From NCBI GenBank assembly GCA_029240055.1, contig JARBTT010000008.1:1-37292 (forward strand): DNA of 37,292 bases, in the 5' to 3' direction. Under the pieces are notes generated by a model. It saw only the letters and a list, made by a program, of their open reading frames with translations. It ran no database searches and was not told the DNA's origin. How positions within the stretch are numbered: the first letter of the stretch is position 1; each line of letters starts with the position of its first letter. A program made the position numbers and the translations under genes. Source of the DNA: Anaerosinus sp. (lineage in GTDB: Bacteria; Bacillota; Negativicutes; JARBTT01). This document shows, piece by piece, positions 8,958 to 29,236 of this stretch.

Positions 8958-9992
8958 CTATATTATTTTATTGAGATTCATATTTCCACCAAAGCGCCAG
9001 AGGCTGATATGATTTACCCCTTGTTCTTTCGCAATCTTTATCCAATCATTTAAAGTTTTTATATCCGCATACCATACTTGATAGGCAACGCCATTTTCTT
9101 TATAATCAAAAATTACGCATTGGCTTTCTTCATCACGCTGCGTGTCAGCGTGATATTTCACGGCAAGATTTCTTGCTTCCACTTCCGTTACTAATCTTTT
9201 TTCTCCGTTGTCACCCCACACGCAACCGCCGGTTGAAAATGCTACTGATTTTTCACCTGGCAAACCTGCCATTCGTGTTATTGTTTTCTCAATAAAGGCC
9301 TTATTTGCTTTCGGCCCAGGGTCGCTATGCAATCCGTAAAGGTTATAAAGCATCACTACATACTCTGGTCCTTCGAAAAATTGAGCAGAAGAGAAAGGTG
9401 TACTCGGCTCTAGCACAATCCTTAGCTTTAAATCATTATCCAACGCTTTTACATAAAGTTTATTAGCAAATTTCAAAAAAGACTGACCAATGCTTTCATC
9501 TTTCCATATTTTTTCATAATCGATTTCAATGCCATCATAGCCGCCCTGTAAAGTTAGTGCAATGATTTCATCCACATGTTTTTCCATTGATACATCATCA
9601 GAAAATAGTCTGCGGAGAACTTCTATATCTTTTATTGTCGACGATCCGTCATTATTTTGCTTATCATTGACAATCGTAAGATAGGTTTCATATTTAGCTT
9701 TTTTCTTTTTTAATTCATTTCTTTTTTCGCTAAGATCTTGCGGGATAAAAACCTTGTCATTTTCATCAAAATATGCGCCAAAATAAGAAAGTTTATCAAG
9801 CTGCTCTCCTATTTTTTTTAAATCTTTTTCACCTGCACCGATATCCCAATAAACTAACCATCCCGCTCTTTTTGTGGGTTCTTTTGCGCCTGTATTGCCA
9901 GCAGATTGACTATTATAAGTACAGCCTAGCAATATAAGAAAAACAGATGCATATATAGCCACTTTGAATGCTTTATGAATTCTTCTAGACAT
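8958..9992 (-). CDS. GH18-type glycoside hydrolase lipoprotein
   Basis: 344 residues, start supported by AAGGAGGAA before the ATG. A lipoprotein signal (hydrophobic run, then LLGC with Cys24) anchors it to the membrane. The rest is a TIM-barrel of the GH18/chitinase type: GWLVYWDIG opens the barrel (residues 44-52), the catalytic DxxDxDxE motif reads DGIEIDYE (153-160, Glu160 the acid), and VWYADIKTLNDW and HISLWRFGG form the last strands. Last gene of the exopolysaccharide operon, about 100 bases after the preceding gene. In synthase-dependent systems such as PNAG, alginate or Pel, a periplasmic hydrolase trims polymer or clears jams; an equivalent role on a HexNAc-containing polymer is inferred. 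Confidence 0.82.
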   Translation of the reverse strand: MSRRIHKAFKVAIYASVFLILLGCTYNSQSAGNTGAKEPTKRAGWLVYWDIGAGEKDLKKIGEQLDKLSYFGAYFDENDKVFIPQDLSEKRNELKKKKAKYETYLTIVNDKQNNDGSSTIKDIEVLRRLFSDDVSMEKHVDEIIALTLQGGYDGIEIDYEKIWKDESIGQSFLKFANKLYVKALDNDLKLRIVLEPSTPFSSAQFFEGPEYVVMLYNLYGLHSDPGPKANKAFIEKTITRMAGLPGEKSVAFSTGGCVWGDNGEKRLVTEVEARNLAVKYHADTQRDEESQCVIFDYKENGVAYQVWYADIKTLNDWIKIAKEQGVNHISLWRFGGNMNLNKII

Positions 9993-10091
9993 ATGCCAAT
10001 TTCCTCCTTAAATTATACTACGACCAAACACACCAATTTTTCTTATATTTTTTCACTTTAGATATTTGCAATTTGCCAGCTACCCTACTGA

Positions 10092-11963
10092 TTATAACCT
10101 AGTGACAAACCAGTCTATCATTGCTTCCCACAATCGCTTCACTTTAAACTTTATGCCATCAAAGCCTTGTAAGCTGCTGTCGAATAAAATCTTTTCTTTT
10201 TCTACGCCGGTGTTTTCAGTAATCATTAGCTTTTCAAACACGCCGTCATATACATCATCCGCCAAGTTTCTTTGACTCCAGCCATAGCCGCCCCATGCCG
10301 TTTCCAGATAAACAGCCCCTGCTTTCATTTCTGATACTTGTAGATTTTCGACAGCCTCTTTGCCATCTACCGTGACACTAATAAAATTTTCTTTGAGCGA
10401 TACCGCTAGCCTACGGTCACCTTTAGTACTCACAGCAAGGTCGCCTATATATTCTTCTGCGCCTTCGTCTACTGTAGGAGCATCTTCCAAATTCTTATCT
10501 TTCAATCTTTCTGCGTAAATCTTTGCTTTTTCAACAGAAGTGGCATATTTCGTAAAGGTTTCTAATTCTCTCATTTCAGCCGCTTTCTTATCTTCGGGAA
10601 TTGATATACGCTCCTTACCATCATGATTATCTAAGTTTAATTTAAATAATTCTTTTTCAGCGCCGCCAGTTTTTTCCGTAACATATAAAACATTATTAAA
10701 AATGGATACGGATAAAAATCTGTTTAATGCTTCATCGGCACGAAGATATATCTTCTGCAAGCCAAGTTTATTTCCCTTTAATCTTACAGAAAGCTTCATG
10801 TCTTCAAAATCACTACTGTTCTTTAAACGCATTAAACCTTTGTCTTGTGGCAGAGACGTCAAAATCATCGTTTCCTCTTGAAACTCCAATGCCCCTTTCA
10901 GTGTTTCCCATGCTTTCTGTTTCTGTAAATCACCTTTGACAAATTCCAAGTCTTGGTTGATATCATATTTGATACGCATCAGCAAATGATTGGTATACCA
11001 ATATGCCTGTGGCTGCATCCTTGTTAAGTCATAAATAGTGCTGTTTCGCTGATTAAAAGAAAAACCTTCTCTATTGAAGTTCATTTTAAACAATTGTTTC
11101 ATCCAATATTCATTTACCGCACTTACTTTATCATTATTGCCAAAACTTCCTGTATTCGAGTGCATCAATATGTACATTCCTGGAACAAACCCAAGCGACT
11201 GCGTATAAATATCTCGCACAGCTTCGTAATCATAACTGATACGTTCTTTCATTTTGGGATAGCTCTCTTTTGGAATACCATATTCATCTCGAATATAATC
11301 CATCAAATAGTGATTGTATTTGCGTCCTAAATATGGCGCAACGCTAGAGTGTACTAGCGGTTCCAATTCTCCCAAATAATTGTTATACCGATCAAATACA
11401 TTAATAAAGGCAAGCCTATATCCATTCGTACCCATTTCCCAGAAAGTTGTTTTTTCAAGCTCACGTAGTTCATCTGGCATTAAAAATTTAGTATCTTTCT
11501 TTTCAAACTTTTCTGGGTAAGTCAACATTGTTCCTTTAAAGTTCAATTCTTCTAAGATTTTTTGCGAAAAAATTGCAGTATCTCTCCTACCGTCTTCAAA
11601 CATCAGAAATAATGATTTTTCCGGCAGGTCTTTCCCTGATTGATAATAGTCTAAAATATCTTGTTGCGTGATTGTTACATAGCCCAAATCTTTGAGCGCT
11701 TGCAAATGATCATGTAAACGTTCCACACCAATTAAATTTTGATTGCCGATTCTTTCTACCCCAAAATAAGCAAGGGCAACAAAGCCTTTATCCCCTGAAA
11801 TTTTTGTAGTCTGCTTTGTATAAGGTTCATAGGTTTTTAGCGTAAATAATGCGGTTATGCAGATAGCACTCACTGCAAGGAGGATCATAATTTGCGCAAC
11901 TACACGTATCTTTTTTTTACGATCTTTTTGATTCGTATATTTTTCATTTCCCATTGTCATCAT
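10092..11963 (-). CDS. Membrane-anchored polysaccharide deacetylase-like protein, probably inactive, with C-terminal sandwich domain
   Basis: 623 residues from the ATG at 11963, one base after the synthase stop (TAAG-ATG), implying translational coupling; the longer reading from 12011 would overlap the synthase by 47 bases. One membrane anchor spans residues about 21-42. Residues 58-330 follow the NodB/PgaB deacetylase order, but the metal motif is altered: FEDG (122-125) replaces FDDG, and the HxxxH motif expected after the EMG strand is absent (EMGTNGYRLAF). The region about 390-600 alternates beta strands (LGLQKIYLRADE, FLSVSIFNNVLYVTE, AVYLETAWGGYG) around a charged helical insert, resembling a LamG/DUF1080-like sugar-binding sandwich. 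A periplasmic polymer-binding or chaperone subunit seems more likely than an active deacetylase. Confidence 0.72.
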   Translation of the reverse strand: MMTMGNEKYTNQKDRKKKIRVVAQIMILLAVSAICITALFTLKTYEPYTKQTTKISGDKGFVALAYFGVERIGNQNLIGVERLHDHLQALKDLGYVTITQQDILDYYQSGKDLPEKSLFLMFEDGRRDTAIFSQKILEELNFKGTMLTYPEKFEKKDTKFLMPDELRELEKTTFWEMGTNGYRLAFINVFDRYNNYLGELEPLVHSSVAPYLGRKYNHYLMDYIRDEYGIPKESYPKMKERISYDYEAVRDIYTQSLGFVPGMYILMHSNTGSFGNNDKVSAVNEYWMKQLFKMNFNREGFSFNQRNSTIYDLTRMQPQAYWYTNHLLMRIKYDINQDLEFVKGDLQKQKAWETLKGALEFQEETMILTSLPQDKGLMRLKNSSDFEDMKLSVRLKGNKLGLQKIYLRADEALNRFLSVSIFNNVLYVTEKTGGAEKELFKLNLDNHDGKERISIPEDKKAAEMRELETFTKYATSVEKAKIYAERLKDKNLEDAPTVDEGAEEYIGDLAVSTKGDRRLAVSLKENFISVTVDGKEAVENLQVSEMKAGAVYLETAWGGYGWSQRNLADDVYDGVFEKLMITENTGVEKEKILFDSSLQGFDGIKFKVKRLWEAMIDWFVTRL

Positions 11964-11964
11964 C

Positions 11965-13806
11965 TTATACCCGCTGCTGCTTTCCACGATTCTTTTTTTC
12001 CAGCTCCGCAATATCTGCTGGAGTCATGCGCGTTCCCCAGGTCGTTTTCCAAAAAGTAACCCAAGCAATCGGCATTTGCCATAAAAGTACGGCTTCATAA
12101 TATAAGCAAAACCATAACCCATAAATCCAGGTAGAACTTCTCCTAATAAATAATTGCGTCATACTCATCAGCAAGGCCATTAAGCAAATACCGATGATAA
12201 AGGTAAATGGAAACACTCTGTGGATAATCGGAATATAAACCAGATTATAAATGACAATAATCGGTGCCAAGATTGGCACAAACACACCCATATAAAACGA
12301 CAAAGCCATAAACGGTTCTTTTCTCCACATAAAACCAGCGGCAATCAATGATTCTCGAAGCCATGATCGTTTCCAGCGCATCTGTTGTTTCAAAAAAACA
12401 TCATAGCTGTTAGGTACAATCGTATTACATATTGCAGTATCTTGATAAACGGTACGATTTTTTCTTAATATGAAATTAGTCATGCTTCGATCATCGCCAA
12501 AGGTCGCTTTCTGCCTAAAAAATTTTTGGTTTAGCCACGCATCCATATATTTAATGAGTAAATCTTTTCTATAACACGAGAGAGGCCCCGATAAACATGT
12601 CACTGCATCAAAATAACTTTCTGCAGCTTTCATAATACGGAAGGCGATAAAATATCTTACCGCTTGCATCTTGGTAAGTGTGTTTGTATAGGTATTGGCC
12701 ACGTCGGTTCTACCAGAAACACCGCCCATTTTTGCATCTTTAAAGGGCTGGACGATATTACGAATAGCAAAAGGGTCTAAGAAGCTATCTGAATCAACAA
12801 ATACAATCAATTCATGCTGCGCCATGACAGCACCTCTTGCCAAGGCCTCCCGTTTCCCTGCATTTTTTTTCTGGCGAACATATTGCAGTCTACTTTCCAT
12901 ATCATAACGTTTTTCTTTGACTTTTAGTTCTTCAATAATTTCTTCAATTTTTTCAATAGATCGGTCGTCAGAGCAATCATCTACGACAATCACTTCTAAT
13001 TTATGGATTGGATAATCCTGATTAATACAGCCTAAAATGGTTTTTTGTATCCATTCTTCCTCATTGAAACAAGGAATGATAATTGTTACCCCCGGTGTAA
13101 AATCTTTATCGATTGGCACAGGACGGTAAAACGTACCGAATAGATACCTAGTGAGCAAAAAGGTAGCTGCAATAATACTGTACATATACAAGATTTTATT
13201 AAATTTAAAATAAAGTACACTCTCTGTCCTCATCAGCAGAATACAGGCAGTAATAACGAATAAACAAAAGGAGGCTACCGTCAGCATATACCAATTTTTC
13301 TTCTTTGCTCTATACTGCGCTAGTGATTGTAAAAATTCTACTGCACACAGAGTTCTCCCATCTGGATTTTTAATAATGCGGATATATTTAGCTGCAATAT
13401 CGACGTTCATTTCATAGCCTTCTGGCATTGTGCCGGGTACTATACTAAATTTCAACCGAATCTTAGCAGCCGTTTGGCTCAAATCCTCAGCAACATCTGG
13501 TAAAACTTCAAGCAACATCCCTGTAGTCGATATATCAACACCTTTAGCCTGACATGTTACTTTTTTATCAGCAGAAGCATAGTTAAGTGTGACAGCATAC
13601 TCAACCAAATAACGTCTACCCATTTCTTCATTTTTTATAAGCTTGGAGATATCATTTATATCCTCATTGCCCTTTAATCGCCGTCGGTCTAAATTCGTAC
13701 GCACGCCTTCTTTGTCAGGCACTTTAGAAACTAGCCGACGGTCAGGTTTGACGACGAGTAAAATATCCTCTTCTGTTTTTATCTCCAGTTGAAATAATTT
13801 ATTCAT
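11965..13806 (-). CDS. PilZ-GT2 processive polysaccharide synthase (hyaluronan/chitin-synthase type)
   Basis: 613 residues from the ATG at 13806 (MNKLFQLEIK; GGTGGGG 9 bases upstream). Residues about 60-160 are a PilZ-like domain (c-di-GMP receptor family) with DISTTG (91-96) matching DxSxxG; the RxxxR partner is degenerate (RRYLV), so binding is uncertain. Two membrane segments (about 172-191 and 205-224) precede a processive GT2 domain: IIIPCFNEEEW, VVDDCSDD (277-281), VDSD (337-340), FGDDRSMTNF (436-445) and the QQMRWKRSW product-binding motif (474-482). FGDDRxxTN and QQxRW are typical of HasA, NodC and chitin synthases. Three or four C-terminal membrane segments form the translocation channel. 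It polymerises and exports an amino-sugar/uronate-type chain across the inner membrane; the product is inferred from the neighbours. Confidence 0.9.
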   Translation of the reverse strand: MNKLFQLEIKTEEDILLVVKPDRRLVSKVPDKEGVRTNLDRRRLKGNEDINDISKLIKNEEMGRRYLVEYAVTLNYASADKKVTCQAKGVDISTTGMLLEVLPDVAEDLSQTAAKIRLKFSIVPGTMPEGYEMNVDIAAKYIRIIKNPDGRTLCAVEFLQSLAQYRAKKKNWYMLTVASFCLFVITACILLMRTESVLYFKFNKILYMYSIIAATFLLTRYLFGTFYRPVPIDKDFTPGVTIIIPCFNEEEWIQKTILGCINQDYPIHKLEVIVVDDCSDDRSIEKIEEIIEELKVKEKRYDMESRLQYVRQKKNAGKREALARGAVMAQHELIVFVDSDSFLDPFAIRNIVQPFKDAKMGGVSGRTDVANTYTNTLTKMQAVRYFIAFRIMKAAESYFDAVTCLSGPLSCYRKDLLIKYMDAWLNQKFFRQKATFGDDRSMTNFILRKNRTVYQDTAICNTIVPNSYDVFLKQQMRWKRSWLRESLIAAGFMWRKEPFMALSFYMGVFVPILAPIIVIYNLVYIPIIHRVFPFTFIIGICLMALLMSMTQLFIRRSSTWIYGLWFCLYYEAVLLWQMPIAWVTFWKTTWGTRMTPADIAELEKKNRGKQQRV

Positions 13807-13899
13807 CCTACACTTCCCCACCTTTTTTTTAGGCTGCTTGCTTAAACAGCATATAATCAACCGATCTCGTCATTTCCGTGTCGATTATTTATACTGCTG

Positions 13900-16545
13900 C
13901 TACTTTTGCACATTATCATGACTACTTAATTTCAGTGCTTCTTTGCGATTGCTTTGCCAGTAGCCATCTATTAAGTAATCTGATAATCTACCAACTCTAA
14001 ATTTGGATGGATCAGAATCCACTTTTGCTTCATTTGCAGTCAACAATATATCTAAAGCCACTGGAGTATAGATACAACTATCTCCCATATGCATCGTCAA
14101 AATCGCACCTTTTTTTACTTCACCTTGTTTTGTATATACCCCGTCTTTGATTGTTTCTACAAGCTCTGGAACACTTTTAGCTTTATAATCATATGTGCTA
14201 CACGAACCTGAGATAATATATTCATAGCCAGTTTCAAACAAGGTTTCAACTCCCATCTTGCTGATTGCTAACGTTGGTGGACGGAAGAATCTCGTCAAAG
14301 AAGGCTTACCGTTAACAGTTACGTCCCCAGTAACATCTCGCAATTTTTGATATGCTGTTGCAAGGTCTTTACTATATTCTTGCTTATCCTGTGTTTTCAC
14401 TTCTTTGCCTGTTTTTGAATCGCGAACCACCATCGGCTTATGACCATCAGAATGACTGCCGATATCATTTCCTTGCATAGCAATGGAGCGAAGTAAATTG
14501 GGATTATTGAGCACATTATGCGTAAGAACAAAGAATGTTCCTTCAACATGATGCTTGCGCAGAACATACAGTATTTTATTGATTGCCGCATCCGTTCCCC
14601 AGTCATCAAATGTCAGGAAAATAACATTGTCTTCAGTGTGTACCAACCCAGTATTATCAAGACGACGGGCATCCATTTTTGAAAAACCGAGCATGCGGTC
14701 TTCGTAAGTAACATCCCCATTCCCAATATAACGTTTTGCTGCTTCGGTTAGAAAATTATGTTGATCGGTCATTAGCATCGGTTCATCATTTCTTAAACGT
14801 TCTGGAACATTTTGCTTGTCGGCTGGATATTGATACGTAAACTTCGTATTATTAAGAATCTCGCCTATCGGCTTAATCTTATACTGTGAGTCATTCGCCA
14901 AATTGTTTGCGGGATTGTCATAGAATGTTACATAAGCAATATTATCCACCTTGCGTTCTTTGATAAGTTCCAGCAAATCAACAATCAAGTGTTCATTCGT
15001 ATAATAATCCATTCTAAAATGGACAATCTGTCCACGAGCTAACGAAAATGTAGACTTGCCGAAAATCTCCGACATCACTTGAACCGCAGAAGTATACTCT
15101 TTATGTTTGCTTTGTACAACATTAATAGATTGACCAATTAATTTGCAGTCGAGATTTGAAACAGCTTTTTTCATAGCCTCCGTTACCGTACCCCATGGCT
15201 GTTTTATCAAATTCGTGGTCACACCAAACTGTTCTTGTAATTTAGTGCGACACCGCATAATATCGTTTTGGATTTCCTCCGTTGTTTCCCCATCTTTCGG
15301 TCTTATGCCAATCCCAATTTCATGCCCACTTTCAATAATTCGCCTTATATTTTGAGGATTCTTTTGCATTTCTACTTCCATCACGAAGAAAGTACCTTTA
15401 ATACCGAGATCATTCAATTTTCCGAGTACATCATTGACTACTGCTTCTTTGGCTACTCCTCCAAAAGTATAAGCAATTGCCGGCTCTGTTGTTGAAATAA
15501 CCTTAATTTCATTTGCATTATGATCCATATTTTCTGCTGCATATGCTGTCCGGCAAGTAAATAAAGCTGTTATCTGCTCTTTTATGAGATAAGCCATAGC
15601 TTTTGCGCTATTTTGTGAAAAAGTTGTTGCTATCGGCTTTGTTAGTGGATTGCTCGCTGAAAAATTCTCCACATAAGTCGTCGTATACTTTGCTCTTTTA
15701 AGCGCAATTAAAAAGTTTTCCACTGCATTAACAAGTTCTTTGTCTTCCATTTCTACCTGCTCAGGCAGCTCTTTTAGGCCTGGTTGTTTATCTATTGCTG
15801 GCTTTAAGTCTATTGTACCCTGCTCGTTTACAATTGGCTCATTATTGGTTTTTAACTTAATAGAAACAATGCTACCGGCTCTAAGTTTGCCGACAAAATC
15901 GTCCGCTGCCTTACCAGAGTTTACTTTTTTCACATTAAAATAAACATCACTTTTTACAACACTCTTAAAGCCACAAGCTCTGGCCACTTGTAGTAACGCT
16001 TCTGTATAGTTTGTATCATTGCATTTTAAAAGATTGGGGTCTTGGTCAGTGGTCACTTTGATAATTTTTTGCGCACGGCAAAAATCTTTAATCAACCTTT
16101 CTGTAGGGAGCTTTTCCATTTTTCCTAGCCCTGACAATGTGTAATTTTCTATTCTTTGTCCTGCTTTTTTAATATTTACGACAGTTTGTGGATCTTCGGC
16201 TGTCTGCATTCCATCCACAAAAAAAGTTGCTTTAACATCATATTTTTTCAATAAATCCAAAATTTGCTCTACTTTCGTGTGATCGGTCAGACCATCAAAA
16301 GTCAAAGCAATCCTACGCTCACCACTAGCACTATGCGTTATGACTCCTACCTGCTCCTGGCTATTTTTCATCTGCGCCATAGCTTGCGCAATTTCCTCAT
16401 CAGCCTGATAGGAATTTTCTACATCAGTAATATTACGTGAGTAACCACTTGTCTGCATCGTAAAGAAGCCTTTGAAGAAAAATACCCCGATAAGACAAAA
16501 ACCGATCAGTATCACCAGTGATGATACCATTTTCCTTTTCTTCAC
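13900..16545 (-). CDS. Membrane-anchored triple-NodB polysaccharide deacetylase
   Basis: 881 residues from the GTG at 16545, 5 bases after the SD AAGAGGTGA, which swallows the earlier GTG at 16554. One N-terminal membrane anchor (residues about 8-28). Three NodB-type domains in tandem. Domain 1 (about 78-300) has LTFDG with one Asp and no His motif. Domain 2 (about 355-545) has YTFGGV, both Asp lost, though SGHEIGIG and KQPWG keep the fold. Domain 3 (about 640-860) is complete: LTFDDWG (644-650), HSDGH (698-702), RFFRPP and TMHMGD. So one catalytic and two degenerate copies, probably acting on the nascent polymer in the periplasm by removing N-acetyl groups, and possibly binding it. Sixteen bases after the dehydrogenase gene. 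Confidence 0.87.
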   Translation of the reverse strand: MKKRKMVSSLVILIGFCLIGVFFFKGFFTMQTSGYSRNITDVENSYQADEEIAQAMAQMKNSQEQVGVITHSASGERRIALTFDGLTDHTKVEQILDLLKKYDVKATFFVDGMQTAEDPQTVVNIKKAGQRIENYTLSGLGKMEKLPTERLIKDFCRAQKIIKVTTDQDPNLLKCNDTNYTEALLQVARACGFKSVVKSDVYFNVKKVNSGKAADDFVGKLRAGSIVSIKLKTNNEPIVNEQGTIDLKPAIDKQPGLKELPEQVEMEDKELVNAVENFLIALKRAKYTTTYVENFSASNPLTKPIATTFSQNSAKAMAYLIKEQITALFTCRTAYAAENMDHNANEIKVISTTEPAIAYTFGGVAKEAVVNDVLGKLNDLGIKGTFFVMEVEMQKNPQNIRRIIESGHEIGIGIRPKDGETTEEIQNDIMRCRTKLQEQFGVTTNLIKQPWGTVTEAMKKAVSNLDCKLIGQSINVVQSKHKEYTSAVQVMSEIFGKSTFSLARGQIVHFRMDYYTNEHLIVDLLELIKERKVDNIAYVTFYDNPANNLANDSQYKIKPIGEILNNTKFTYQYPADKQNVPERLRNDEPMLMTDQHNFLTEAAKRYIGNGDVTYEDRMLGFSKMDARRLDNTGLVHTEDNVIFLTFDDWGTDAAINKILYVLRKHHVEGTFFVLTHNVLNNPNLLRSIAMQGNDIGSHSDGHKPMVVRDSKTGKEVKTQDKQEYSKDLATAYQKLRDVTGDVTVNGKPSLTRFFRPPTLAISKMGVETLFETGYEYIISGSCSTYDYKAKSVPELVETIKDGVYTKQGEVKKGAILTMHMGDSCIYTPVALDILLTANEAKVDSDPSKFRVGRLSDYLIDGYWQSNRKEALKLSSHDNVQK

Positions 16546-16561
16546 GCATATCACCTCTTAT

Positions 16562-17890
16562 TTAAAGACTCCAATAGGAGTAATTTTTCTTTTCTATGTC
16601 TTTTGGATCAAATATATTTTTGATATCAACAAAGACATGTTTTGTTTGCTCTCTTTGCGGTTTGAACATGCTTTCCAAATCCGCCAATCGCAACTCTCTA
16701 AATTGTTGGTGTGCTACTAAAAACACCAAACAATCAGCATCTCTGACATCTTTAAGATCAACCAATTCCATATTGAATTCTTTTTTAAATTCTGTTTCAT
16801 CAGCAACCGGATCTACCACCTTGACCTCTATTCCATACGTAGCAAAGTGCTTCACAACAGCTGCCGCTTTTGAATTCCGCATATCAGGACAATCTTCTTT
16901 AAAAGTGATTCCCATAACATAAATAGTAGATTGTTTGATATTTTTATTTGCTTCAATCATTTTTTTTATCACATTATCAGCAGTGAAAACCACCATATTA
17001 TCATTTACTTTTCTGCCAGCGGCAATAATCTGCGAATGATATCCTAACATCTCCGCTTGATAAATAAAGTAATATGGATCGACACCGATACAATGTCCGC
17101 CTACCAATCCCGGTGAAAATCCCAAAGCATTCCATTTGGTATTCATGGCATCGATAACATCCTTGGTGTTGATTCCCATTCGATCAAAAGCCATTGCCAA
17201 TTCATTCATAAAGGCAATATTAATATCTCTTTGAGCATTTTCAGCCAGTTTAGCTGCTTCCGCTACTTTAATACTAGAGGCCTTATAAACACCAGCATGA
17301 ATAATCAACTCGTAGATCGCAGCAACGTTTTCCACCGTTTCTTCATCCATCCCCGAAACAATTTTTCGTATGTTTTCAAGTTTGTGCACTTTATCACCTG
17401 GATTAATTCTCTCCGGTGAATACCCAACTTTGAAATCTATTCCATATACCATACCTGATTCTTTTTCTAAAATAGGTACACAAACATCTTCTGTAACCCC
17501 CGGATACACTGTGGACTCAAAAATAATAATACTGCCTTTCGATAAATTTTGTCCTATTATTTTACTGGCATTGATAACAGGTGCCAAATTCGGTGTTTTA
17601 TCTCCATTGACAGGCGTTGGGACAGCAACAATGATGACTTTTGCTTCTTTCAACCTTGTAGCATCAGTGGTAAATTCCAATGTAGTATTTTTGATTTTTT
17701 CATCACCAATTTCATTGGTAGGATCCATTCCCTGCTTGTAAACATTGATTTTTTCTTGGTTAATATCAAACCCCAGCGTTTTGACTTTACCAGCAAATGC
17801 AACAGCAATAGGTAATCCCACATAACCAAGGCCTACAACTGCTAAAAAATCTATTTTTGTCCGAATTCGTTGTAAAATTTCCATCTGCAT
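16562..17890 (-). CDS. UDP-N-acetylhexosamine 6-dehydrogenase (TviB/WbpO type)
   Basis: 442 residues, ATG at 17890 with GGGAG 7 bases upstream. NAD-dependent nucleotide-sugar dehydrogenase making a UDP-HexNAc uronic acid in the cytoplasm. Rossmann motif GLGYVG (20-25), PTPVNGDKTPNL (91-102), GYSPERINPGDK (156-167, typical of TviB/WbpO rather than UDP-glucose dehydrogenase), the catalytic Cys267 in GGHCIGVDPYYF, and GITFKEDCPDMRNSK. Length is normal for the family. It supplies the sugar donor for the synthase, as AlgD does for alginate, so the polymer should contain an N-acetylhexosaminuronic acid; whether Glc, Gal or Man configured cannot be told. Confidence 0.9.
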   Translation of the reverse strand: MQMEILQRIRTKIDFLAVVGLGYVGLPIAVAFAGKVKTLGFDINQEKINVYKQGMDPTNEIGDEKIKNTTLEFTTDATRLKEAKVIIVAVPTPVNGDKTPNLAPVINASKIIGQNLSKGSIIIFESTVYPGVTEDVCVPILEKESGMVYGIDFKVGYSPERINPGDKVHKLENIRKIVSGMDEETVENVAAIYELIIHAGVYKASSIKVAEAAKLAENAQRDINIAFMNELAMAFDRMGINTKDVIDAMNTKWNALGFSPGLVGGHCIGVDPYYFIYQAEMLGYHSQIIAAGRKVNDNMVVFTADNVIKKMIEANKNIKQSTIYVMGITFKEDCPDMRNSKAAAVVKHFATYGIEVKVVDPVADETEFKKEFNMELVDLKDVRDADCLVFLVAHQQFRELRLADLESMFKPQREQTKHVFVDIKNIFDPKDIEKKNYSYWSL

Positions 17891-17913: not shown

Positions 17914-19419
17914 CTAAAAATAACGAGTCACATAACTCCACCAAGTTTCGCCTTTTTCTCCAGTAATTTTATCTTCTAAGTTGTAATGTTCTATACCTCC
18001 GACAAGGTTTTCGGCAAAGGTATAGTTTACGCCTACTCCGTAACCTTTAAATCCTTGCATGGAATTCCCCATACCATTCATACCATGTGAAATATAAGTA
18101 CCACTTGGTTGATTGTAATATTTTGCAAAGATATCATATGTTCTTGGTCTATATGGCTTCAAATCACCATAGTTAATACTAAGCACATAGCCATTGTTGT
18201 CCCCTCTGCTATCTTTCTGACTAGAGTGCAAAACCATAGCTCCTACACCAAAATTAGAAAAATTATAAATTCCGCTAAAAGTACCGATTGTATTTTTACT
18301 TTTACTGCTGTCATCAGCCTCATAATGATAGACTCCAGCCTCCAAATTATAATCCAAATCATTGTACCGCGCAGTTGCTATAAATGTTTTTTTCGTGTAA
18401 TCAGTTTTCCCATAACTCAACGTGTATTTCAGCGCTTCACCAAAATCATATCTAGCCCCTTTAAAGGTACTATCATAAATATTTCCCTCTGCCATAAGAT
18501 AGCCAAATGAGCCTACTTTCAGCATTGATTCGCCTATTTTGTGGGTTACATATAAATTTAAAAGTTTGAATTCATTATCATAATTTACTAAGTCTTGTTT
18601 ACCTTCCAACATCCCATAGGCATGCCAGTCCTGATCAAACTCTGCATCAACGCCAAGACGAACACGAATTCCCGAGGAATCCTGTTGCAATTGCTTAGCT
18701 CCGCTATTCGATGCGTAATGAAGACGAATTTCACCGTCCATATTTATTTTATTATCCGCATGATTTCTACGGTCGCTTACATTCATCAATTCATCGATAA
18801 GACCATGATATGTTTCTGGGGCAATATCACTTGTAGGAACGCTTTCCTTTTTAGCAAGATCGACATTATTATCCACGACAATTATTGGTTTTTGCTCAAT
18901 ATCCGCATTATTTCTAAGAAGTATTCCTTTTGACTGGCTGTAGTCATTGCTCCCCTGAAGCATGGTTTTGTTATCTGCATTCATTATGATTTTTGTTGTA
19001 AGCTTTGCTATTTCATAGGAAAATTCGATTTTTGCTTTTTCTACATCTAAATTTTCATCACCAACTATTTTTGTTGTAATCTGTGCCATTTTATAGGCAA
19101 ATTCATCTCTTTCATCGTTAGGCAGAAGTGGCATTACCTTTGTTGTAGCCTCAGCAACAGCATAAGAATATTCCTTTTGAAAATTTTCAATATTTCCGGT
19201 CGTAACAGATACTACCTTCGCTGTAAATTGTGCCATTTCATAGGCAAACTCAGTTTTGAAATTGTCTGCATTTCCCTTTATTGTAGCAATAGACTTAGAA
19301 TAAGACTTTTGCTCACTATTGAGCTTGTTTGCAGCATATACTACGTTTTTCAATGGTCTATCTATAACGATCCCAATAACGATTGCCATTAAAAGCAATA
19401 TACTAAAAACCTTTTTCAC
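17914..19419 (-). CDS. Outer-membrane beta-barrel porin with four N-terminal helical repeats
   Basis: 501 residues from the GTG at 19419 (MKKVFSILLL); the GTG at 19431 lies inside the SD AGGGGGGGTGAA. Signal peptide to about residue 30 (VVYAA). Then four imperfect repeats spaced 23-26 residues: FAYEMAQFTAKVV (58-70), YSYAVAEATTKVM (84-96), FAYKMAQITTKIV (107-119), FSYEIAKLTTKII (133-145), probably helical. From about 220 to the end are amphipathic beta strands ending in aromatic Phe (YVTRYF), the signature of an outer-membrane barrel. No SLH domain is visible, unlike many Negativicutes porins. As the first gene of the operon it is the obvious outer-membrane exit for the polymer; periplasmic helical repeat plus barrel recalls BcsC, PgaA and AlgK/AlgE. 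That analogy is inference. Confidence 0.82.
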   Translation of the reverse strand: MKKVFSILLLMAIVIGIVIDRPLKNVVYAANKLNSEQKSYSKSIATIKGNADNFKTEFAYEMAQFTAKVVSVTTGNIENFQKEYSYAVAEATTKVMPLLPNDERDEFAYKMAQITTKIVGDENLDVEKAKIEFSYEIAKLTTKIIMNADNKTMLQGSNDYSQSKGILLRNNADIEQKPIIVVDNNVDLAKKESVPTSDIAPETYHGLIDELMNVSDRRNHADNKINMDGEIRLHYASNSGAKQLQQDSSGIRVRLGVDAEFDQDWHAYGMLEGKQDLVNYDNEFKLLNLYVTHKIGESMLKVGSFGYLMAEGNIYDSTFKGARYDFGEALKYTLSYGKTDYTKKTFIATARYNDLDYNLEAGVYHYEADDSSKSKNTIGTFSGIYNFSNFGVGAMVLHSSQKDSRGDNNGYVLSINYGDLKPYRPRTYDIFAKYYNQPSGTYISHGMNGMGNSMQGFKGYGVGVNYTFAENLVGGIEHYNLEDKITGEKGETWWSYVTRYF

Positions 19420-19439
19420 TAAAAATTTCACCCCCCCTG

Positions 19440-19530: not shown

Positions 19531-19589
19531 AAAAAAAATTACCAAGTTGCATTTACAATATACATAGTACTTAAAATGCAACCTGGCAA
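19531..19589 (-). terminator. Riboswitch-controlled intrinsic terminator of the exopolysaccharide operon
   Basis: On the minus-strand RNA, TTGCCAGGTTGCATTT (19589-19574) pairs over all 16 bases (two G-U) with AAATGCAACTTGGTAA (19554-19539), followed by eight U (19538-19531). It lies about 110 bases before the porin start, inside the leader. Its 5' arm is the 3' end of the c-di-GMP aptamer, so aptamer and terminator are mutually exclusive. Confidence 0.85.
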
Positions 19590-19667
19590 TCATAGACTTC
19601 AATCATCCTTAGACCCATAGCTTTGCGCCCCTTATTTTCAAAAGGTTTGCTAGTTATATTCATTTTT
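19573..19667 (-). promoter_or_regulatory. Cyclic di-GMP-I (GEMM) riboswitch aptamer
   Basis: Read on the minus strand from 19667: P1 5' strand AAAATG; GCAAACC (19650-19644); a GAAA tetraloop; GGCGCAAAGC (19629-19620); GGGTCTAAG; a variable hairpin; and TATGATTGCCAGGTTGC. P1 closes with CATTTT (19578-19573). This is the order and sequence of the GEMM-I consensus (GCAAACC, GAAA tetraloop, GACGCAAAGC, GGGUCUAA, GCCAGGUUGC), with one departure, GGCGC for GACGC. The 3' strand of the ligand-bound fold is the 5' arm of the terminator at 19531-19589, so c-di-GMP should block termination (an ON switch). Ligand specificity is known for the family; the direction of switching is inferred. Confidence 0.9.
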
Positions 19668-20128: not shown

Positions 20129-20159
20129 TAAAAAAAAGTCAGGACACTTGTCCTGACTT
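20129..20159 (-). terminator. Terminator of the Sia operon
   Basis: AAGTCAGGACA (20136-20146) pairs with TGTCCTGACTT (20149-20159), and the minus strand continues into TTTTTTTTAG. It lies 11 bases after the stop of the GGDEF/HD-GYP gene. Confidence 0.88.
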
Positions 20160-20169: not shown

Positions 20170-21774
20170 TTAATCTGCAATAAACTCCAGAAATTTTTTG
20201 GTAAGCGTGGGATCAAAATGGGTTCCACTTTCACTGGAAATTTCCATTAGTGCTTCTTGTTTTCCTAGCGCCGACCGATAGGGACGATCATGGGTTAAAA
20301 CATCATACATATCAATCAACGAAAATATTCGCACTGTAAGTGGTATCTGCTCTTCGTGTAATCCATGAGGATATCCTGTCCCGTCCCACCATTCATGATG
20401 TAAAAGAATAGCCTCTGCCAAAGGAGTTTTTCCAATAGAGTTAGCTAAGCGATACCCTACATCACTATGATTTTTCACAATATCCCATTCCTCATCACTC
20501 AAAACGCCTCTGCGTCCCCAGATATCACTATTAATGGCTACCTTACCAATATCGTGTAGCCTTGCCAAATGGAGTAAAGTCTCTATTTGTAACTGCTCCA
20601 ACGGCACCCCTAAAAAAGCGATAAATTTAGACGTCAACTGCTCTACTCGAGTGCCATGACCATCATTTTCATAACATTGACTATATAATAACCCTTCTAG
20701 GCTGGAAATAAAACCTTGATGCAAGGCAGCTCTTTTAGCTAACTTATCGCTATACATCATACTCTCCGCTTCACTAAACATTTCTGGAAAGCGAAAAGTC
20801 CCTCTCGTTTTCGTAGTCCGACCAATAGCCGCACTAACCTTGATTGGATTGTCTTTTGTTTGAGCACAAGCAGTTTGAATACACTCACAAATTCCTTGGC
20901 AAATCGCAGCGCTCGTCTGTGGCAATACGATCAAAAACTCATCCCCGCCCCAGCGAGCAATAATATCAGTTGGTCGGCAACATTTTTTCATGATATTTGC
21001 AATAGCAATTAGCAGCGTATCCCCCTGCTGATGTCCGAAAACATCATTTACCAGTTTCAATCCATTCATATCAATAATAACAATACTGATTGGCATCGCT
21101 TGGGTTCCTTCAACTTCTGGTAAGACTGTCTCGACATAAGCACGATTATATACCCCTGTCATTTTATCATGATAACTAAGATAATGGATTTCTTTCTCTG
21201 CTAATAATTTTTCTGTAATGTCCGTCAAAATCATCATAATTAAAGGCTCATCACCAAACTCAGATTCAAGCAATTTGCATTCAACCTGAATATCTCTGTC
21301 CTTGATTCGGAACCTCACTGGAAATTGCTGAAGTAACGACTCTGCAAGAGCATTGCTTTCAGCAAAAACCTGCGACAAAATTTTCTCTAATTTAATTTTA
21401 TCTGTATCATTTTCTTGCGTTAAAAGAGAGGTAATTGATAAACCAGCTATCTTCTGACCAAATATCCGAACACATTCCTGGCTATATTGGCGGCCAACTT
21501 TCAAATCCCTAGTAAAAGTTAAAAAGCCTTGATTGGCATTATCAAGTAAGTTCTGCATCTCGGCTTGCTGCCTCTGCAGAACTTTACCCTGACGATCACT
21601 TATATAAAAAGCTTTTTTCGTAATGCGCAACAACTTCTGATATTCTTTAGTCAACCTTGAATACGACGCTAATATTTCCTGTTCATTAGCCGTGGCATGA
21701 GCAATCATAGTCTGTGCCTCTTCTAAAGTCCGATCTTCACCATCAAACAAATGCTTTTCCATTTCTTTTTTCAT
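20170..21774 (-). CDS. PAS-GGDEF-HD-GYP c-di-GMP synthase/hydrolase in the SiaD position
   Basis: 534 residues from the ATG at 21774 (GAGG 5 bases upstream). Residues 1-75 are a coiled-coil stalk ending LTKEYQKLLRITKK...YISDRQGKVLQR, the segment type through which SiaC contacts SiaD in Pseudomonas. Residues about 76-190 are a PAS-like domain. A diguanylate cyclase domain (200-350) has an intact WGGDEF (275-280) and an allosteric RxxD site (RPTD, 267-270). A phosphodiesterase HD-GYP domain (365-530) has HDIGK (407-411) and HHEWWDGTGYP (459-469) intact. Pseudomonas SiaD has only the stalk and GGDEF, so the fused HD-GYP domain is unusual. It may make c-di-GMP when SiaC is bound and degrade it otherwise; the net activity cannot be read from sequence. 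Confidence 0.88.
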   Translation of the reverse strand: MKKEMEKHLFDGEDRTLEEAQTMIAHATANEQEILASYSRLTKEYQKLLRITKKAFYISDRQGKVLQRQQAEMQNLLDNANQGFLTFTRDLKVGRQYSQECVRIFGQKIAGLSITSLLTQENDTDKIKLEKILSQVFAESNALAESLLQQFPVRFRIKDRDIQVECKLLESEFGDEPLIMMILTDITEKLLAEKEIHYLSYHDKMTGVYNRAYVETVLPEVEGTQAMPISIVIIDMNGLKLVNDVFGHQQGDTLLIAIANIMKKCCRPTDIIARWGGDEFLIVLPQTSAAICQGICECIQTACAQTKDNPIKVSAAIGRTTKTRGTFRFPEMFSEAESMMYSDKLAKRAALHQGFISSLEGLLYSQCYENDGHGTRVEQLTSKFIAFLGVPLEQLQIETLLHLARLHDIGKVAINSDIWGRRGVLSDEEWDIVKNHSDVGYRLANSIGKTPLAEAILLHHEWWDGTGYPHGLHEEQIPLTVRIFSLIDMYDVLTHDRPYRSALGKQEALMEISSESGTHFDPTLTKKFLEFIAD

Positions 21775-21810
21775 CAAAACCTCATCTCACCTTCATTCGC
21801 ACATCCAATG

Positions 21811-23640
21811 CTAACGAATAGAAAAACCTAATAAAGTAATATCATCACGCTGTGATTCATCTGCCATATAGTTTCGCAACACTGTCTCAAAATGTGCTGC
21901 TTGACAAGCTACCGCTTCTTGTTGCGCGAGAATTTCTGTAGTAAAATTTTTCTTACCAAAGGAATAATTTTTCTTACCACCATTTTGGTCAATATAACCA
22001 TCTGTTACTAAGTAAAACTGATCGCCAGCCTCAATATCCCAACTCTGACTGGTAAAGGTCAAAGTCTCAGGCGATGCTTTATAGCCGATACTCTTATGAT
22101 CACCTGGTATCGTATGGATTTCCTGATCTCGTCTAACATAAAGTGAAAGTTTAGCCCCAGCAAAACTCAGTCGTGAATGACCTTCAATGGCGCAAATAGC
22201 AATATCTAGGCCATCATCACGAAAAGATTGCTGATGATTACGATGCAAAATTTGCTTCATCTGCAAATTTAATTCTGATAAAATCTGAGCCGGTTCAGTA
22301 TGATTTTGCTCAACAATATGTTTTAAAGCTGAATTCACAGCCATCGTCATAAATGCACCGGGAACACCATGACCAGTACAATCCACAAGAGCAACCAGAC
22401 TTTTTTCCTCACTCACACGCCTCACCCAAAAGAAATCACCACCGACAATATCGCGCGGTCGCCAAAGTACAAAATAAAAACCAAGTACATCCTCAAGTTC
22501 CTCGGAAGTCGGTAATATAGATTCCTGAAGTAGTCTAGCATATTCAATGCTATCCATGATTTTCTCATTACTCTCAGCCAATTCACTCGTCCGCGCTTTT
22601 ACCTGCTGTTCCATTTTTTGTGTAAGTAAAAGGGCACGTTTGAGTGGATTCGCAATTCTACGCGATACCAAATAAAAAACTAGAGTAATCATGAGCACAG
22701 CAATAAGACTGGCAATCGCTGTATTCATTTTAATTGTTTTTAAAACTGCGATACTTTCACTGCGCTTGATTTGGAGTACCACTTTCCAATCGGTAGACTC
22801 AGTTCTCTTATACGCCAAGTCAACGGTTTCTCCAGCTGCGTTTACATATTCCAGTATTTGTGGCTGCGTCTGCTGGCTGTTCGTATCAGCAATAATTTGA
22901 TCAGCAACTGCCGCTGGCATAAAGTCGTTTAAATTTTTACCGTTTTGTTCTACGCTATCCGCTAAATGAATCTTCCCGTTGCCATCCACGAGCCACAAGG
23001 CACTGCTTTCACCGAACTTATACTCTGTAAATTCTTTGGCAATGTCCGCAAGACTCAAACCAACGCCCGCTATGCCACTGGGATGTTTTAAATCACCGAT
23101 TAACGCATTCAAAAAAACATAGGTATTGTCCCTGCCAATATTATAATCAATATTCAAGCTTACCGCTTTATCAGATTTGAGTGTTTCATAAAACCAGTAA
23201 TCATCCGCATTATCTTCGGACATTCTCTGCAGTAGCCTACCTTCTTCAGCCCAGTAATTTCCTGTTACTACACTGACAATAAAGGAATTAACATAGTCGT
23301 AACTTTGGGCCATATCAGTAAGCTTATCCTTTGCATACTTTCCCAATTGTTCATTTTTTTCACCTGAAAGCACCCATTCGTTAACCGCAGAATCCCGCGC
23401 CAGAAGAAGAGACGTCTCACGAGCGCGGGCAATTCTCCCGTCAATTTTTGCTGTTGCCGATTCAATAATATAAACAAGATCCCGTGATTTAAGCTTATCT
23501 ACAACTGCATTACGCGTAATAAAATAACTTATGCTACCTGTAAAAACAACAGCCAAAACAATGATGATACAAGCAAAGCTCACTACCTTCATCGTACTGC
23601 CATCATACATAATATTTTGATCACTCGTTACTTTGCTCAT
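21811..23640 (-). CDS. siaA: SiaA-like membrane sensor PP2C phosphatase
   Basis: 609 residues from the ATG at 23640 (GGGAG 9 bases upstream), chosen over the upstream Met codons, which lack an SD. Two membrane segments (about 19-42 and 306-325) enclose an extracytoplasmic dCache-like sensor domain (about 45-300, with DYWFYETLKSDKAV and TYVFLNALIGD). A helical linker follows (ARTSELAESNEKIMDSIEYA). The cytoplasmic PP2C/SpoIIE phosphatase domain (about 385-605) has GGDFFW (400-405), DCTGHGVPGAF (420-430), DGYIDQNGG and RDDITLLGF, so the metal-binding Asp residues are in place. In Pseudomonas SiaA dephosphorylates SiaC and thereby activates the diguanylate cyclase SiaD. The gene follows siaC by 19 bases. 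Confidence 0.88.
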   Translation of the reverse strand: MSKVTSDQNIMYDGSTMKVVSFACIIIVLAVVFTGSISYFITRNAVVDKLKSRDLVYIIESATAKIDGRIARARETSLLLARDSAVNEWVLSGEKNEQLGKYAKDKLTDMAQSYDYVNSFIVSVVTGNYWAEEGRLLQRMSEDNADDYWFYETLKSDKAVSLNIDYNIGRDNTYVFLNALIGDLKHPSGIAGVGLSLADIAKEFTEYKFGESSALWLVDGNGKIHLADSVEQNGKNLNDFMPAAVADQIIADTNSQQTQPQILEYVNAAGETVDLAYKRTESTDWKVVLQIKRSESIAVLKTIKMNTAIASLIAVLMITLVFYLVSRRIANPLKRALLLTQKMEQQVKARTSELAESNEKIMDSIEYARLLQESILPTSEELEDVLGFYFVLWRPRDIVGGDFFWVRRVSEEKSLVALVDCTGHGVPGAFMTMAVNSALKHIVEQNHTEPAQILSELNLQMKQILHRNHQQSFRDDGLDIAICAIEGHSRLSFAGAKLSLYVRRDQEIHTIPGDHKSIGYKASPETLTFTSQSWDIEAGDQFYLVTDGYIDQNGGKKNYSFGKKNFTTEILAQQEAVACQAAHFETVLRNYMADESQRDDITLLGFSIR

Positions 23641-23659
23641 CCCCAAGTGCTCCCGCTCT

Positions 23660-24052
23660 TTATTCATCATCATCTAAGACAATAAGCTCAAACGGTAACA
23701 TAAGATCTTCCTTAAACTCTTCTGCGCACTCCAATGCGGCCTCATCTTCATGATTATAATACCATTCGATTGCAACTTTTCGCCCTTCCTGATAAGCATT
23801 TTCCATTTTTTCTAGCAGCATCATAATGCACTTAGAACTACTCGTATTTATGTACGGCATATGAAAATATATTTCTAAAACAGTTTCTTTATCTATCTCT
23901 GTCAAATACTGATCCAACCAATTAAAAATTGGTTCATAAAACTTAAAGGCATTTTCCGGATAAGATTGTCCTTCAATCCTCAGCTTATTATTCACAATAT
24001 CAAACTGAATGGTTGGAGTTGACTTTGTTTGCTCTATGCATAAATTTTCCAT
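23660..24052 (-). CDS. siaC: SiaC (DUF1987), phosphorylatable partner of the cyclase
   Basis: 130 residues from the ATG at 24052 (AGGAGG 7 bases upstream); the reading back to 24157 overlaps siaB by nearly 100 bases. DUF1987 landmarks: MENLCIEQTKSTPTIQFD, SYPENAFKFYEPIFNWL (30-46), and YINTSSSK (67-74), which contains the Thr (Thr70, near Thr68 of Pseudomonas SiaC) phosphorylated by SiaB. Acidic C-terminus. In P. aeruginosa unphosphorylated SiaC binds the stalk of SiaD and switches on c-di-GMP synthesis. Same gene context here. Confidence 0.88.
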   Translation of the reverse strand: MENLCIEQTKSTPTIQFDIVNNKLRIEGQSYPENAFKFYEPIFNWLDQYLTEIDKETVLEIYFHMPYINTSSSKCIMMLLEKMENAYQEGRKVAIEWYYNHEDEAALECAEEFKEDLMLPFELIVLDDDE

Positions 24053-24062
24053 GTCTTTCCTC

Positions 24063-24605
24063 CTACACTTGAACCTTAAGAGTAAAAAATGATAATTGCT
24101 CATCAATATCCTGTATAGAATACTGGAGCTTTCCACTAGCACGCCGAGCCATATCAATAAGCCCTAGGCCCGCGCCGGTACTTTCTGGATCAAGAGTTTT
24201 CTTTATTTGTTCCTTATATAGCTTTTTTAGCCCGATCTTATCCAAAGATGTAATCACAGCTAACTTATCTTTAAGCAATTCAACATCAGTAGTAGTCAAC
24301 ATATTTCCTGAAGACACAAAGTACCCTTCCGCGTCTTTGCCAATTGCAACAATCCCCGAATTGGCGATTTTTTCACCATTGGCAAATTCACTTTGACTGC
24401 TGGCATAATTTTTCACATTTTGAGTCTGCTCAATAAAAACAGCAAATACATCATGTGTTTTATGCTGCGTGGATTCTGTCTCCATATACTTTTTTACCGC
24501 ATCCCCAAGTTCCTCAATAATTTCTTGGGTAAAACGACCAGAGAAAGTGATTAGCACACCATTTTTTTGTAAGTGCCTTTGCAAGTCCAGCAAATTTAAA
24601 TTCAT
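24063..24605 (-). CDS. siaB: SiaB (DUF6272), SiaC kinase
   Basis: 180 residues, start with AGGAGG upstream. A GHKL-type small kinase of the DUF6272/SiaB family: FIEQTQNVKNYA (an N-box, about residues 57-68) and GAGLGLIDMARRAS (about 144-157, the G-box). SiaB phosphorylates SiaC, blocking its activation of the cyclase, and opposes SiaA. First gene of the operon siaB-siaC-siaA-GGDEF/HD-GYP; the stop lies 10 bases before siaC. Confidence 0.88.
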   Translation of the reverse strand: MNLNLLDLQRHLQKNGVLITFSGRFTQEIIEELGDAVKKYMETESTQHKTHDVFAVFIEQTQNVKNYASSQSEFANGEKIANSGIVAIGKDAEGYFVSSGNMLTTTDVELLKDKLAVITSLDKIGLKKLYKEQIKKTLDPESTGAGLGLIDMARRASGKLQYSIQDIDEQLSFFTLKVQV

Positions 24606-24876: not shown

Positions 24877-26385
24877 TCAGCCTGTATTACCCCAGCGCTT
24901 TTCAAGCATCCAAGCCACTGCCCACAGAGCCACTCCCAACGTAGCAGAAGTCAGATCAACTCCAGCGGTCATCCAATCACCACAAAGCAGTGTTTTAGGC
25001 AGTCCAACCGAAGTCGTCATTTCATTGAGCAGTGGCAGGCAAGCACAAAGCCCTGCGGCCAATTTTAACTGTTCTACCCATGCTTTTTCCTTCGTGCGCC
25101 AAAATGCATGAATAAACATGAGCAGCCAAATGAAAAAGAATGCAATGACCTCTGCGTCAGCTCTCTCCTTTAAAGAAAGAGGCAATAGGCGATTTGCCCA
25201 TAAATAGCTGATAGAAGCAATGATACAGCCAGTGGTTACAGCTACATTGATGGCCTCAACTGCACGAAAAAAATCACGTTTATTGCCCCATTCCTGCTCA
25301 TACTTGGACCGCCTTTTTACCGTAAAAAATACTAGTCCCGTAGCAATCATCACGCAACCGATCAAGCCCAAGATAAAATAGCCCCACGCCATAGGATATC
25401 CGCCAAACTTACCAATATGTAGTCCTACCAATGAACGCACAATCGTCGCCTGCGTATCCCACTTAGTCTTGCTGATAAGCCACTCGCCAGTTACACCATC
25501 AAAAGAGGCTCGATCTGTAATCGCTAGCATGCGGTCATCTACCCGCCGCATAAAGTTAATGAGAGCACTCCGCTTATCTGGCTGTTGTATTTGAACAAAT
25601 CCAATATTTCCTACGCCAAGTTCCTTTTCTGCAGATGGAAGCAGCGCGGTCAAAGGATAAATTTGTACTTTTTCTTGACTCTTTGGACGTTCTACGCCAT
25701 CTAAAAATTCGTTCCAATATCCATTGGACGTTTTATAAAACGTATTGAGCGAAACCGGCATAATATCTTTAAAGGTCATTACCAGTCCTGAATAGGTTAT
25801 CAAGACTACGAACGGCAGTGTAAGAATCCCTGTCATCATATGCACACTAAGCCAATTTTTTCGCCAACGTAGACAAAAGAAATCTTTAATCACATTTCTT
25901 CGAATCATAATACCAGAAATGAGCGCGCCCAGCATCACAAGGCCTGCTATGCTTACCAGCCAAGTTCCTGCATGCTTATGATGCAACTCATAGTGAAAAT
26001 GCGAAAAGAATTCACCGCCATCTGTGCCTCTGCCTTTAATTACATCACCAGTTGTCGGATCAATATAACGATCAAAGGTCTGACCATTCTTTTTCCAAGA
26101 GATTTCTAGCATCGAGGACCGCCCTTGCGGAAGAATAACAAGCCATACATCCGCGTCAGCGGCATTTTTGCGCAAAGCTTTTTCTGCAGCTGCTAGCGAT
26201 TCGCTCGCAGCTACATTTTGCACACGAACCTCTGGATTCATCCAATAGCTGATCTCCGGTTCAAATACTGCAAGCGTACCTGTGAAAAACACAATAAATA
26301 ATACCCAGCCAAAAAAAAGTCCTCCCCAAGTATGAAAATCTCGCATTCGCTGCACCACCGTATGATGCACTGTAAAATTTTTCAC
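24877..26385 (-). CDS. PepSY-associated membrane protein, probable ferric-siderophore reductase
   Basis: 502 residues from a GTG at 26385 (AAAGGAGGAATCGC upstream). PepSY_TM/PiuB-type protein: the first membrane helix carries RMRDFHTWGGLFFGW with the heme-ligand-type His, and further His-bearing helices follow (HFHYELHHKHAG, SVHMMTGILTLPF, GLHIGKFGGYP), with more hydrophobic segments to the C-terminus. Members of this family sit beside TonB-dependent receptors and are thought to reduce ferric siderophore complexes at the inner membrane. Last gene of the Fur-controlled operon, 13 bases after the DUF3649 gene. Confidence 0.87.
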   Translation of the reverse strand: MKNFTVHHTVVQRMRDFHTWGGLFFGWVLFIVFFTGTLAVFEPEISYWMNPEVRVQNVAASESLAAAEKALRKNAADADVWLVILPQGRSSMLEISWKKNGQTFDRYIDPTTGDVIKGRGTDGGEFFSHFHYELHHKHAGTWLVSIAGLVMLGALISGIMIRRNVIKDFFCLRWRKNWLSVHMMTGILTLPFVVLITYSGLVMTFKDIMPVSLNTFYKTSNGYWNEFLDGVERPKSQEKVQIYPLTALLPSAEKELGVGNIGFVQIQQPDKRSALINFMRRVDDRMLAITDRASFDGVTGEWLISKTKWDTQATIVRSLVGLHIGKFGGYPMAWGYFILGLIGCVMIATGLVFFTVKRRSKYEQEWGNKRDFFRAVEAINVAVTTGCIIASISYLWANRLLPLSLKERADAEVIAFFFIWLLMFIHAFWRTKEKAWVEQLKLAAGLCACLPLLNEMTTSVGLPKTLLCGDWMTAGVDLTSATLGVALWAVAWMLEKRWGNTG

Positions 26386-26398
26386 GCGATTCCTCCTT

Positions 26399-26731
26399 TC
26401 ACCGAAAACAACTAGCTATCAATGCGATTCCCCCGACTAGCACAATTCCACTCAACAACACTTTCCACGCATACTGCGCACTTGCAGCAGCAAAAGTCCA
26501 AACGATAGCCGCTAAGTAGACGAGCGGTAATAGCCATTCACAAAAGCTTACCGTTTCCGTATGCTTTTGCCAAGGAAGCAGCAATGATATTGCTTTCATC
26601 AGACTGTAGGTTATACCATAACCGCCAAAGATTGCTGCCAGGAAACGAAGGATCAATTGCATTGCCGGATGCGTGCTTAAAAACAATTCTTTGATGATTT
26701 CCACTTCAGCAGTCATCGTAATCTTTTGCAA
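26399..26731 (-). CDS. DUF3649-type small membrane protein of the iron-uptake operon
   Basis: 110 residues from a TTG at 26731, 7 bases after AGGAGG, which makes TTG the best start. Three to four hydrophobic helices (about residues 28-50, 62-82, 88-108); RFLAAIFGGYGITYSL is the DUF3649-like opening. These proteins are found next to PepSY_TM proteins and TonB receptors in iron loci; function unknown. Confidence 0.7.
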   Translation of the reverse strand: MQKITMTAEVEIIKELFLSTHPAMQLILRFLAAIFGGYGITYSLMKAISLLLPWQKHTETVSFCEWLLPLVYLAAIVWTFAAASAQYAWKVLLSGIVLVGGIALIASCFR

Positions 26732-26750
26732 TCTTATACCTCCTTATGTC

Positions 26751-28991: not shown

Positions 28992-29008
28992 CCCCAACTC
29001 TCCTTTTT

Positions 29009-29202: not shown

Positions 29203-29236
29203 ATATGTATTTTGATTGAAAGGAGTTTATTGCAGC

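Follow-up and report, generated by a model that had tools for sequence, protein, structure and literature searches.

In Pseudomonas, the SiaABCD-type phosphorylation switch is known to govern biofilm signalling. In P. aeruginosa it consists of the SiaB kinase, the PP2C phosphatase SiaA, the DUF1987 protein SiaC with an N-T-S phosphosite, and SiaD, a stalked diguanylate cyclase, all encoded in one operon. The same elements occur in a 37,292-nucleotide stretch of Anaerosinus sp. (contig JARBTT010000008.1, assembly GCA_029240055.1), hereafter the window, where a minus-strand operon at 20170-24605 encodes siaB, siaC, siaA and a fourth gene, here called D, neighbouring genes overlapping or lying a few tens of bases apart; downstream of the operon lies a cyclic di-GMP (c-di-GMP) riboswitch that heads a set of polysaccharide genes, the matrix operon (Table 1). 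Unlike the P. aeruginosa system, this operon has the order B-C-A-D and a dCache-type SiaA, and unlike P. aeruginosa SiaD, the D protein bears one putative docking motif, a PAS domain and an HD-GYP domain. All four proteins score below the NCBIfam equivalog cut-offs of SiaABCD. The operon, with its stalk-PAS-GGDEF-HD-GYP protein, is a real and conserved SiaABCD variant that is apparently undescribed, and the literature searched makes no mention of a SiaC partner with an HD-GYP domain.

A sequence-only reading of the window had proposed a SiaABC phospho-switch at 20170-24605, and family searches together with conserved residues bear it out. SiaB matches NF038262 at 204 bits (cut-off 85), and its catalytic Glu, E59, and N63 are invariant among 56 homologues. 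SiaC matches PF09345 at 147.6 bits (versus 24.5), and within its Y-I-N-T-S-S segment N69-T70-S71 aligns to N67-T68-S69 of P. aeruginosa SiaC, in which T68 is the phosphosite. The SiaA search returned dCache and SpoIIE/PP2C domains; the PP2C domain aligns to 6k4e (E 5e-46) with its acidic residues retained, and the metal-binding Asp positions D413, D431, D558/G559 and D610/D611 are invariant in homologues. The equivalog cut-offs are missed at 278 of 700 bits for SiaA, 150 of 225 for SiaB and 127 of 150 for SiaC, and the three are family members, not strict equivalogs.

The D protein had been read as a stalk, a GGDEF domain and an HD-GYP domain, an architecture that holds but for a PAS domain at about residues 83-186, between the stalk and the GGDEF domain, which was missed. 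Family searches report GGDEF and HD_5, and the GGDEF, I-site RPTD, HDIGK, HHEWWDGTGYP and D..D motifs are all present. AlphaFold models, with mean predicted local distance difference test (pLDDT) scores of 85.5 and 83.2, place a 48-residue stalk helix ahead of a PAS fold, GGDEF and HD-GYP. The PAS domain is not called by Pfam, for which the best match is PAS_9 at E 0.09; a structure search, which matched residues 1-200 to PAS/LOV structures, decided the point. SiaD (7e6g) is the fourth Foldseek match of the full model. By the SiaD equivalog NF038266, D reaches 106.6 of 290 bits, and the additional PAS and HD-GYP domains depart from its GGDEF-only architecture. A Hypr (cyclic GMP-AMP-type) cyclase was set aside: N244 and D253, which from general knowledge of PleD we take to be the positions that recognize guanine, are invariant, so c-di-GMP is the expected product. 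The SiaD-type character of the stalk was confirmed by profile-profile comparison (hhalign) with the stalks of short SiaD proteins (probability 97.9%, E 5e-13) and by its ISD motif, in which I59 and D61 are invariant and S60 is at least 90% conserved. In P. aeruginosa SiaD, residues S82, D83 and Q86 of the equivalent motif touch SiaC T68 and its neighbours, with S82 contacting T68 (PMC8457831).

The pairing recurs in related genomes, as the sequence-only reading had expected. We surveyed at the class and phylum levels, the family and order levels containing the window genome only; SiaC is encoded by 25 of the 380 genomes surveyed for the class and by 11 of the 398 for the phylum. A named genome scan was limited to the best 80 loci, and PAS-only proteins unrelated to SiaC, which make up most of the lower half of these, were left out. 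The fused D gene stands at about 40 Bacillota loci, almost always adjoining siaC, in the order siaB-siaC-siaA-D or siaA-siaB-siaC-D; carriers include Sporomusa, Pelosinus, Desulfosporosinus, Clostridium homopropionicum, Petroclostridium, Paenibacillus and Cohnella, among others, and other genomes hold the short GGDEF-only SiaD. SiaC trees group by partner type and not by taxonomy alone (5 changes versus 17.6 in shuffles); within family f25, members whose SiaC is of the fused type or accompanies a PucR-type regulator fall in separate clades.

What the HD-GYP domain does was addressed by comparison with PmGH, a trinuclear HD-GYP phosphodiesterase. The window protein has all eight PmGH metal ligands (E185, H189, H221, D222, H250, H276, H277 and D305) as well as K225, D308 and GYP, so that its earlier description as apparently complete stands for the ligands; it fails at the D183 position, which is Cys here and in most relatives. 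Substitution of Ala for H276 or H277 abolishes PmGH activity, and the D183 Ala mutant is likewise inactive (PMC4159591). We aligned 41 fused-type D proteins, of which 38 have the HD-GYP domain and three have lost it while retaining GGDEF. GGDEF is intact in every one and the I-site in most. The first His of the HH metal pair (H276) is His in only the window protein and a Syntrophomonadaceae relative (L106), being V, L, M, F or I in the other 36 (the Sporomusa ovata DSM 2662 homologue has LH), and the H277 equivalent is often Arg. Taken as a control, the unrelated HD-GYP proteins encoded at these loci keep HH in 11 of 11 cases (10 distinct, since L043 and L081 share one), against 2 of 38 in the D family (Fisher p = 3e-10). 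The D tree nests the window protein (98/93) with an LH relative and a relative lacking the domain. Its HH pair has therefore either been regained, by a single base change (CTN to CAN), or been retained as a rare exception, an error in the draft genome sequence being the less likely alternative.

These data bear directly on the earlier proposal that SiaC toggles a single protein between c-di-GMP synthesis and hydrolysis. With the HH pair lost in 36 of 38 domains and GGDEF always intact, a toggle is unsupported as the conserved function or as a general mechanism. For the window protein itself, a true bifunctional enzyme switched by SiaC docking would accord with its ligand set and its intact GGDEF domain and I-site; the loss of HH across the family, the nested tree position and the Cys at D183, however, argue against hydrolysis as the conserved function of the family, and we consider such an enzyme unlikely. 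The more specific proposal that the HD-GYP domain of the window lineage kept or regained HH, and that SiaC, as a Thr-phosphorylated adaptor, makes one protein alternate between c-di-GMP synthesis and breakdown next to the riboswitch that senses this messenger, strikes us as improbable. It is very doubtful that D in this lineage is mainly a phosphodiesterase with an active HD-GYP domain and a GGDEF domain serving as a GTP sensor: the complete HH pair here and in L106 would suit this, but the GGDEF catalytic motif and I-site are retained, and the adjoining riboswitch, which c-di-GMP is predicted to turn on, is a better fit to a synthase.

In the account that we favour as probable, D is a SiaD-like diguanylate cyclase that SiaC activates under the control of the SiaABC partner-switch; its HD-GYP domain is mainly non-catalytic, and the matrix operon is raised via an ON riboswitch. 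Gene order, motifs, conservation, HD-GYP degeneration in relatives, the riboswitch and the terminator were computed; binding, direction of control and enzymatic activity we infer. By homology, SiaA and SiaB would set the phosphorylation of SiaC at Thr70. By analogy with the P. aeruginosa SiaC-SiaD structure, unphosphorylated SiaC would dock in the I59-S60-D61 region of the stalk dimer, bringing the GGDEF domains into an active dimer, with the PAS domain as a possible second input. The HD-GYP domain may act in feedback, binding c-di-GMP or controlling the dimer, as shown for DvhD, whose domain, with HH changed to MN, binds c-di-GMP without cleaving it and is a receptor without these ligands (PMC13090378); the D model matches this domain (9rbz) with target template modelling (TM) scores of 0.73-0.76. 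The net output of D would then be c-di-GMP synthesis, which would open the downstream riboswitch and increase matrix operon expression.

Two sister genomes (G091, locus L059, and G093, locus L058; 99% complete) bear on the direction of control. Both keep siaC-D with the fused D gene, with SiaB absent genome-wide and neither siaA nor siaB adjoining siaC-D, and both have Ala at the SiaC phosphosite, which is Thr or Ser in all 58 other SiaC proteins. P. aeruginosa SiaC T68A is still active, and all single mutants restored biofilm formation (PMC8457831). An Ala phosphosite in the absence of SiaB fits an unphosphorylated SiaC being the D-activating form. Several points weigh against the partner-switch account. 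The SiaB-less genomes are sisters and hence represent one evolutionary event; the Q86 contact of P. aeruginosa SiaD is out of register in the D stalk, which has Gly64 there and its Gln at 63; the stalk bears one docking motif, versus two in SiaD; and the window protein, judged by its eight ligands, is the family member in which "non-catalytic" is least safe.

The riboswitch that would read the output is of the c-di-GMP-I class, and because the 5' arm of the terminator behind it overlaps the 3' strand of aptamer P1, it is predicted to be activated by c-di-GMP. In the window genome, five c-di-GMP-I riboswitches score above the cut-off, and there are 14 GGDEF domains. Another c-di-GMP-I riboswitch immediately precedes a GGDEF gene (G000:C120:7296-8611) and is a feedback candidate, and a second riboswitch-porin-dehydrogenase copy (L158, G000:C187:1639-3391) has a tRNA, not Sia genes, just upstream. 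The Sia operon has its own terminator, so the matrix operon is probably a separate transcription unit.

The adjacency noted earlier is real in the window; RF01051 is, however, found within ~9 kb of the operon in 0 of 21 fused-type relatives, and a conserved link between fused-type operon and riboswitch was rejected. The riboswitch-porin-dehydrogenase order is itself kept in the class (21 of the 25 loci fetched have the riboswitch, and among the others several are cut or masked), and Sia genes were not seen at these 25 loci in the upstream stretch covered, up to 7-9 kb. Both observations would suit a chance neighbourhood of two functionally unrelated operons, an explanation that does not depend on how the enzyme is read. 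Against it stands the presence of another SiaABC subtype beside this matrix operon. In L054 (G292) the order V4R-SiaA-SiaB-SiaC-(stalk-PucR HTH)-GGDEF is followed by RF01051 and that operon, and in L053 (G303) a module of the L054 type sits at the opposite end of that operon. Of the seven class genomes holding both parts, three have a Sia module linked to the matrix operon, for which the rough chance probability, computed post hoc, is 3e-6; other polysaccharide genes lie next to the Sia loci L051 and L057, with RF01051 before a BcsB/GT2 operon in L051. This recurrence lends partial independent support to the idea that signal source and target are linked, and chance adjacency is a real possibility to which we give less than even weight.

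Table 1. Features of the siaBCA-D operon and the downstream matrix operon (window coordinates)
Feature	Position	Strand	Remarks
siaB	24063..24605	-	SiaB-family kinase, 180 residues
siaC (DUF1987)	23660..24052	-	130 residues; phosphosite N69-T70-S71
siaA	21811..23673	-	dCache sensor and PP2C phosphatase, 620 residues; start codon uncertain
D gene	20170..21777	-	stalk-PAS-GGDEF-HD-GYP protein, 535 residues; TTG start, or ATG at 21774
Stalk helix of D, residues 33-80	21538..21681	-	predicted SiaC-docking motif K55..ISD(59-61)xQ63
PAS domain of D, residues 83-186	21220..21531	-	
GGDEF domain of D	20731..21174	-	RWGGDEF; I-site RPTD, residues 268-271
HD-GYP domain of D, residues 356-533	20179..20712	-	HH at residues 460-461 (20400-20395; codons CAT CAT)
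Intrinsic terminator of siaBCA-D operon	20136..20159	-	strong
c-di-GMP-I riboswitch aptamer (RF01051)	19574..19661	-	66.6 bits (gathering score 35)
Terminator hairpin behind aptamer	19542..19586	-	-18.8 kcal/mol; 5' arm overlaps P1 3' strand
Beta-barrel/porin-like protein	17914..19431	-	first matrix-operon gene
Nucleotide-sugar dehydrogenase	16562..17890	-	matrix operon
Protein with three polysaccharide-deacetylase domains	13900..16554	-	matrix operon
Family 2 glycosyltransferase	11965..13860	-	matrix operon
639-residue protein (family unknown) and GH18-like protein	8958..12011	-	matrix operon end

By eye, the N-terminal region of the glycosyltransferase encoded in the matrix operon resembles PilZ (DISTTG), a domain that Pfam does not report; if true, it would be a second c-di-GMP control point. 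The matrix porin has about four EFAYEMAQ.TTK-like repeats N-terminal to its barrel, and some relatives reach ~1,100 residues. Upstream of the Sia operon, at 24877-31917, a TonB receptor, a PepSY-TM protein, an AraC-like regulator and ExbB/ExbD/TonB-like genes form what is an iron or siderophore uptake cluster.

The putative SiaC-docking stalk also occurs on proteins with other outputs. Histidine kinases near Sia genes carry it at L063:6514-7542, L066:6484-7497 and L090:7941-8918, with HisKA and HATPase_c found in those of L063 and L090, and given these kinases the stalk is portable. The separate SiaABC subtype of L051, L053, L054 and L057, next to polysaccharide genes, has its stalk on a PucR/CdaR-like regulator (HTH_30 in L054); the V4R protein preceding it in L054 has similar counterparts in L051 and L053. 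Elsewhere (L122, L125, L129 and L133), siaC, accompanied by siaA and siaB if the contig extends far enough, is followed by a ~718-residue protein with PAS, which in L122 also has Hpt, HATPase_c and CheX-like domains. It is very similar across metagenome-assembled genomes labelled Gammaproteobacteria, Bacteroidales and Desulfocapsa, a likeness due to recent transfer or binning error. The stalks on histidine kinases and PucR-type regulators suggest that SiaC serves as a general adaptor whose plug is portable. SiaC control probably reaches not just the short SiaD cyclase but also a Bacillota family that is large and apparently undescribed.

Among HD-GYP proteins, the window D protein shares with PmGH (4MCW) the eight metal ligands, K225, D308 and GYP, and differs in the Cys at D183, its relatives being without H276 and often without H277. 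With the c-di-GMP receptor DvhD (9RBZ) it shares the PAS-helix-HD-GYP build, and most of the D family shares the loss of HH; DvhD, however, is a membrane receptor without GGDEF, and the window protein retains HH. The natural variants of the family (HH, LH, LR, no HD-GYP domain, and SiaC with Ala70) are a resource on how degenerate HD-GYP domains affect a cyclase. The top Foldseek match is to GGDEF-EAL hybrids such as PA0861, which also combine PAS, a cyclase and a hydrolase-type domain in one chain; unlike these, the D protein has HD-GYP in place of EAL and is encoded in a SiaC-type adaptor operon.

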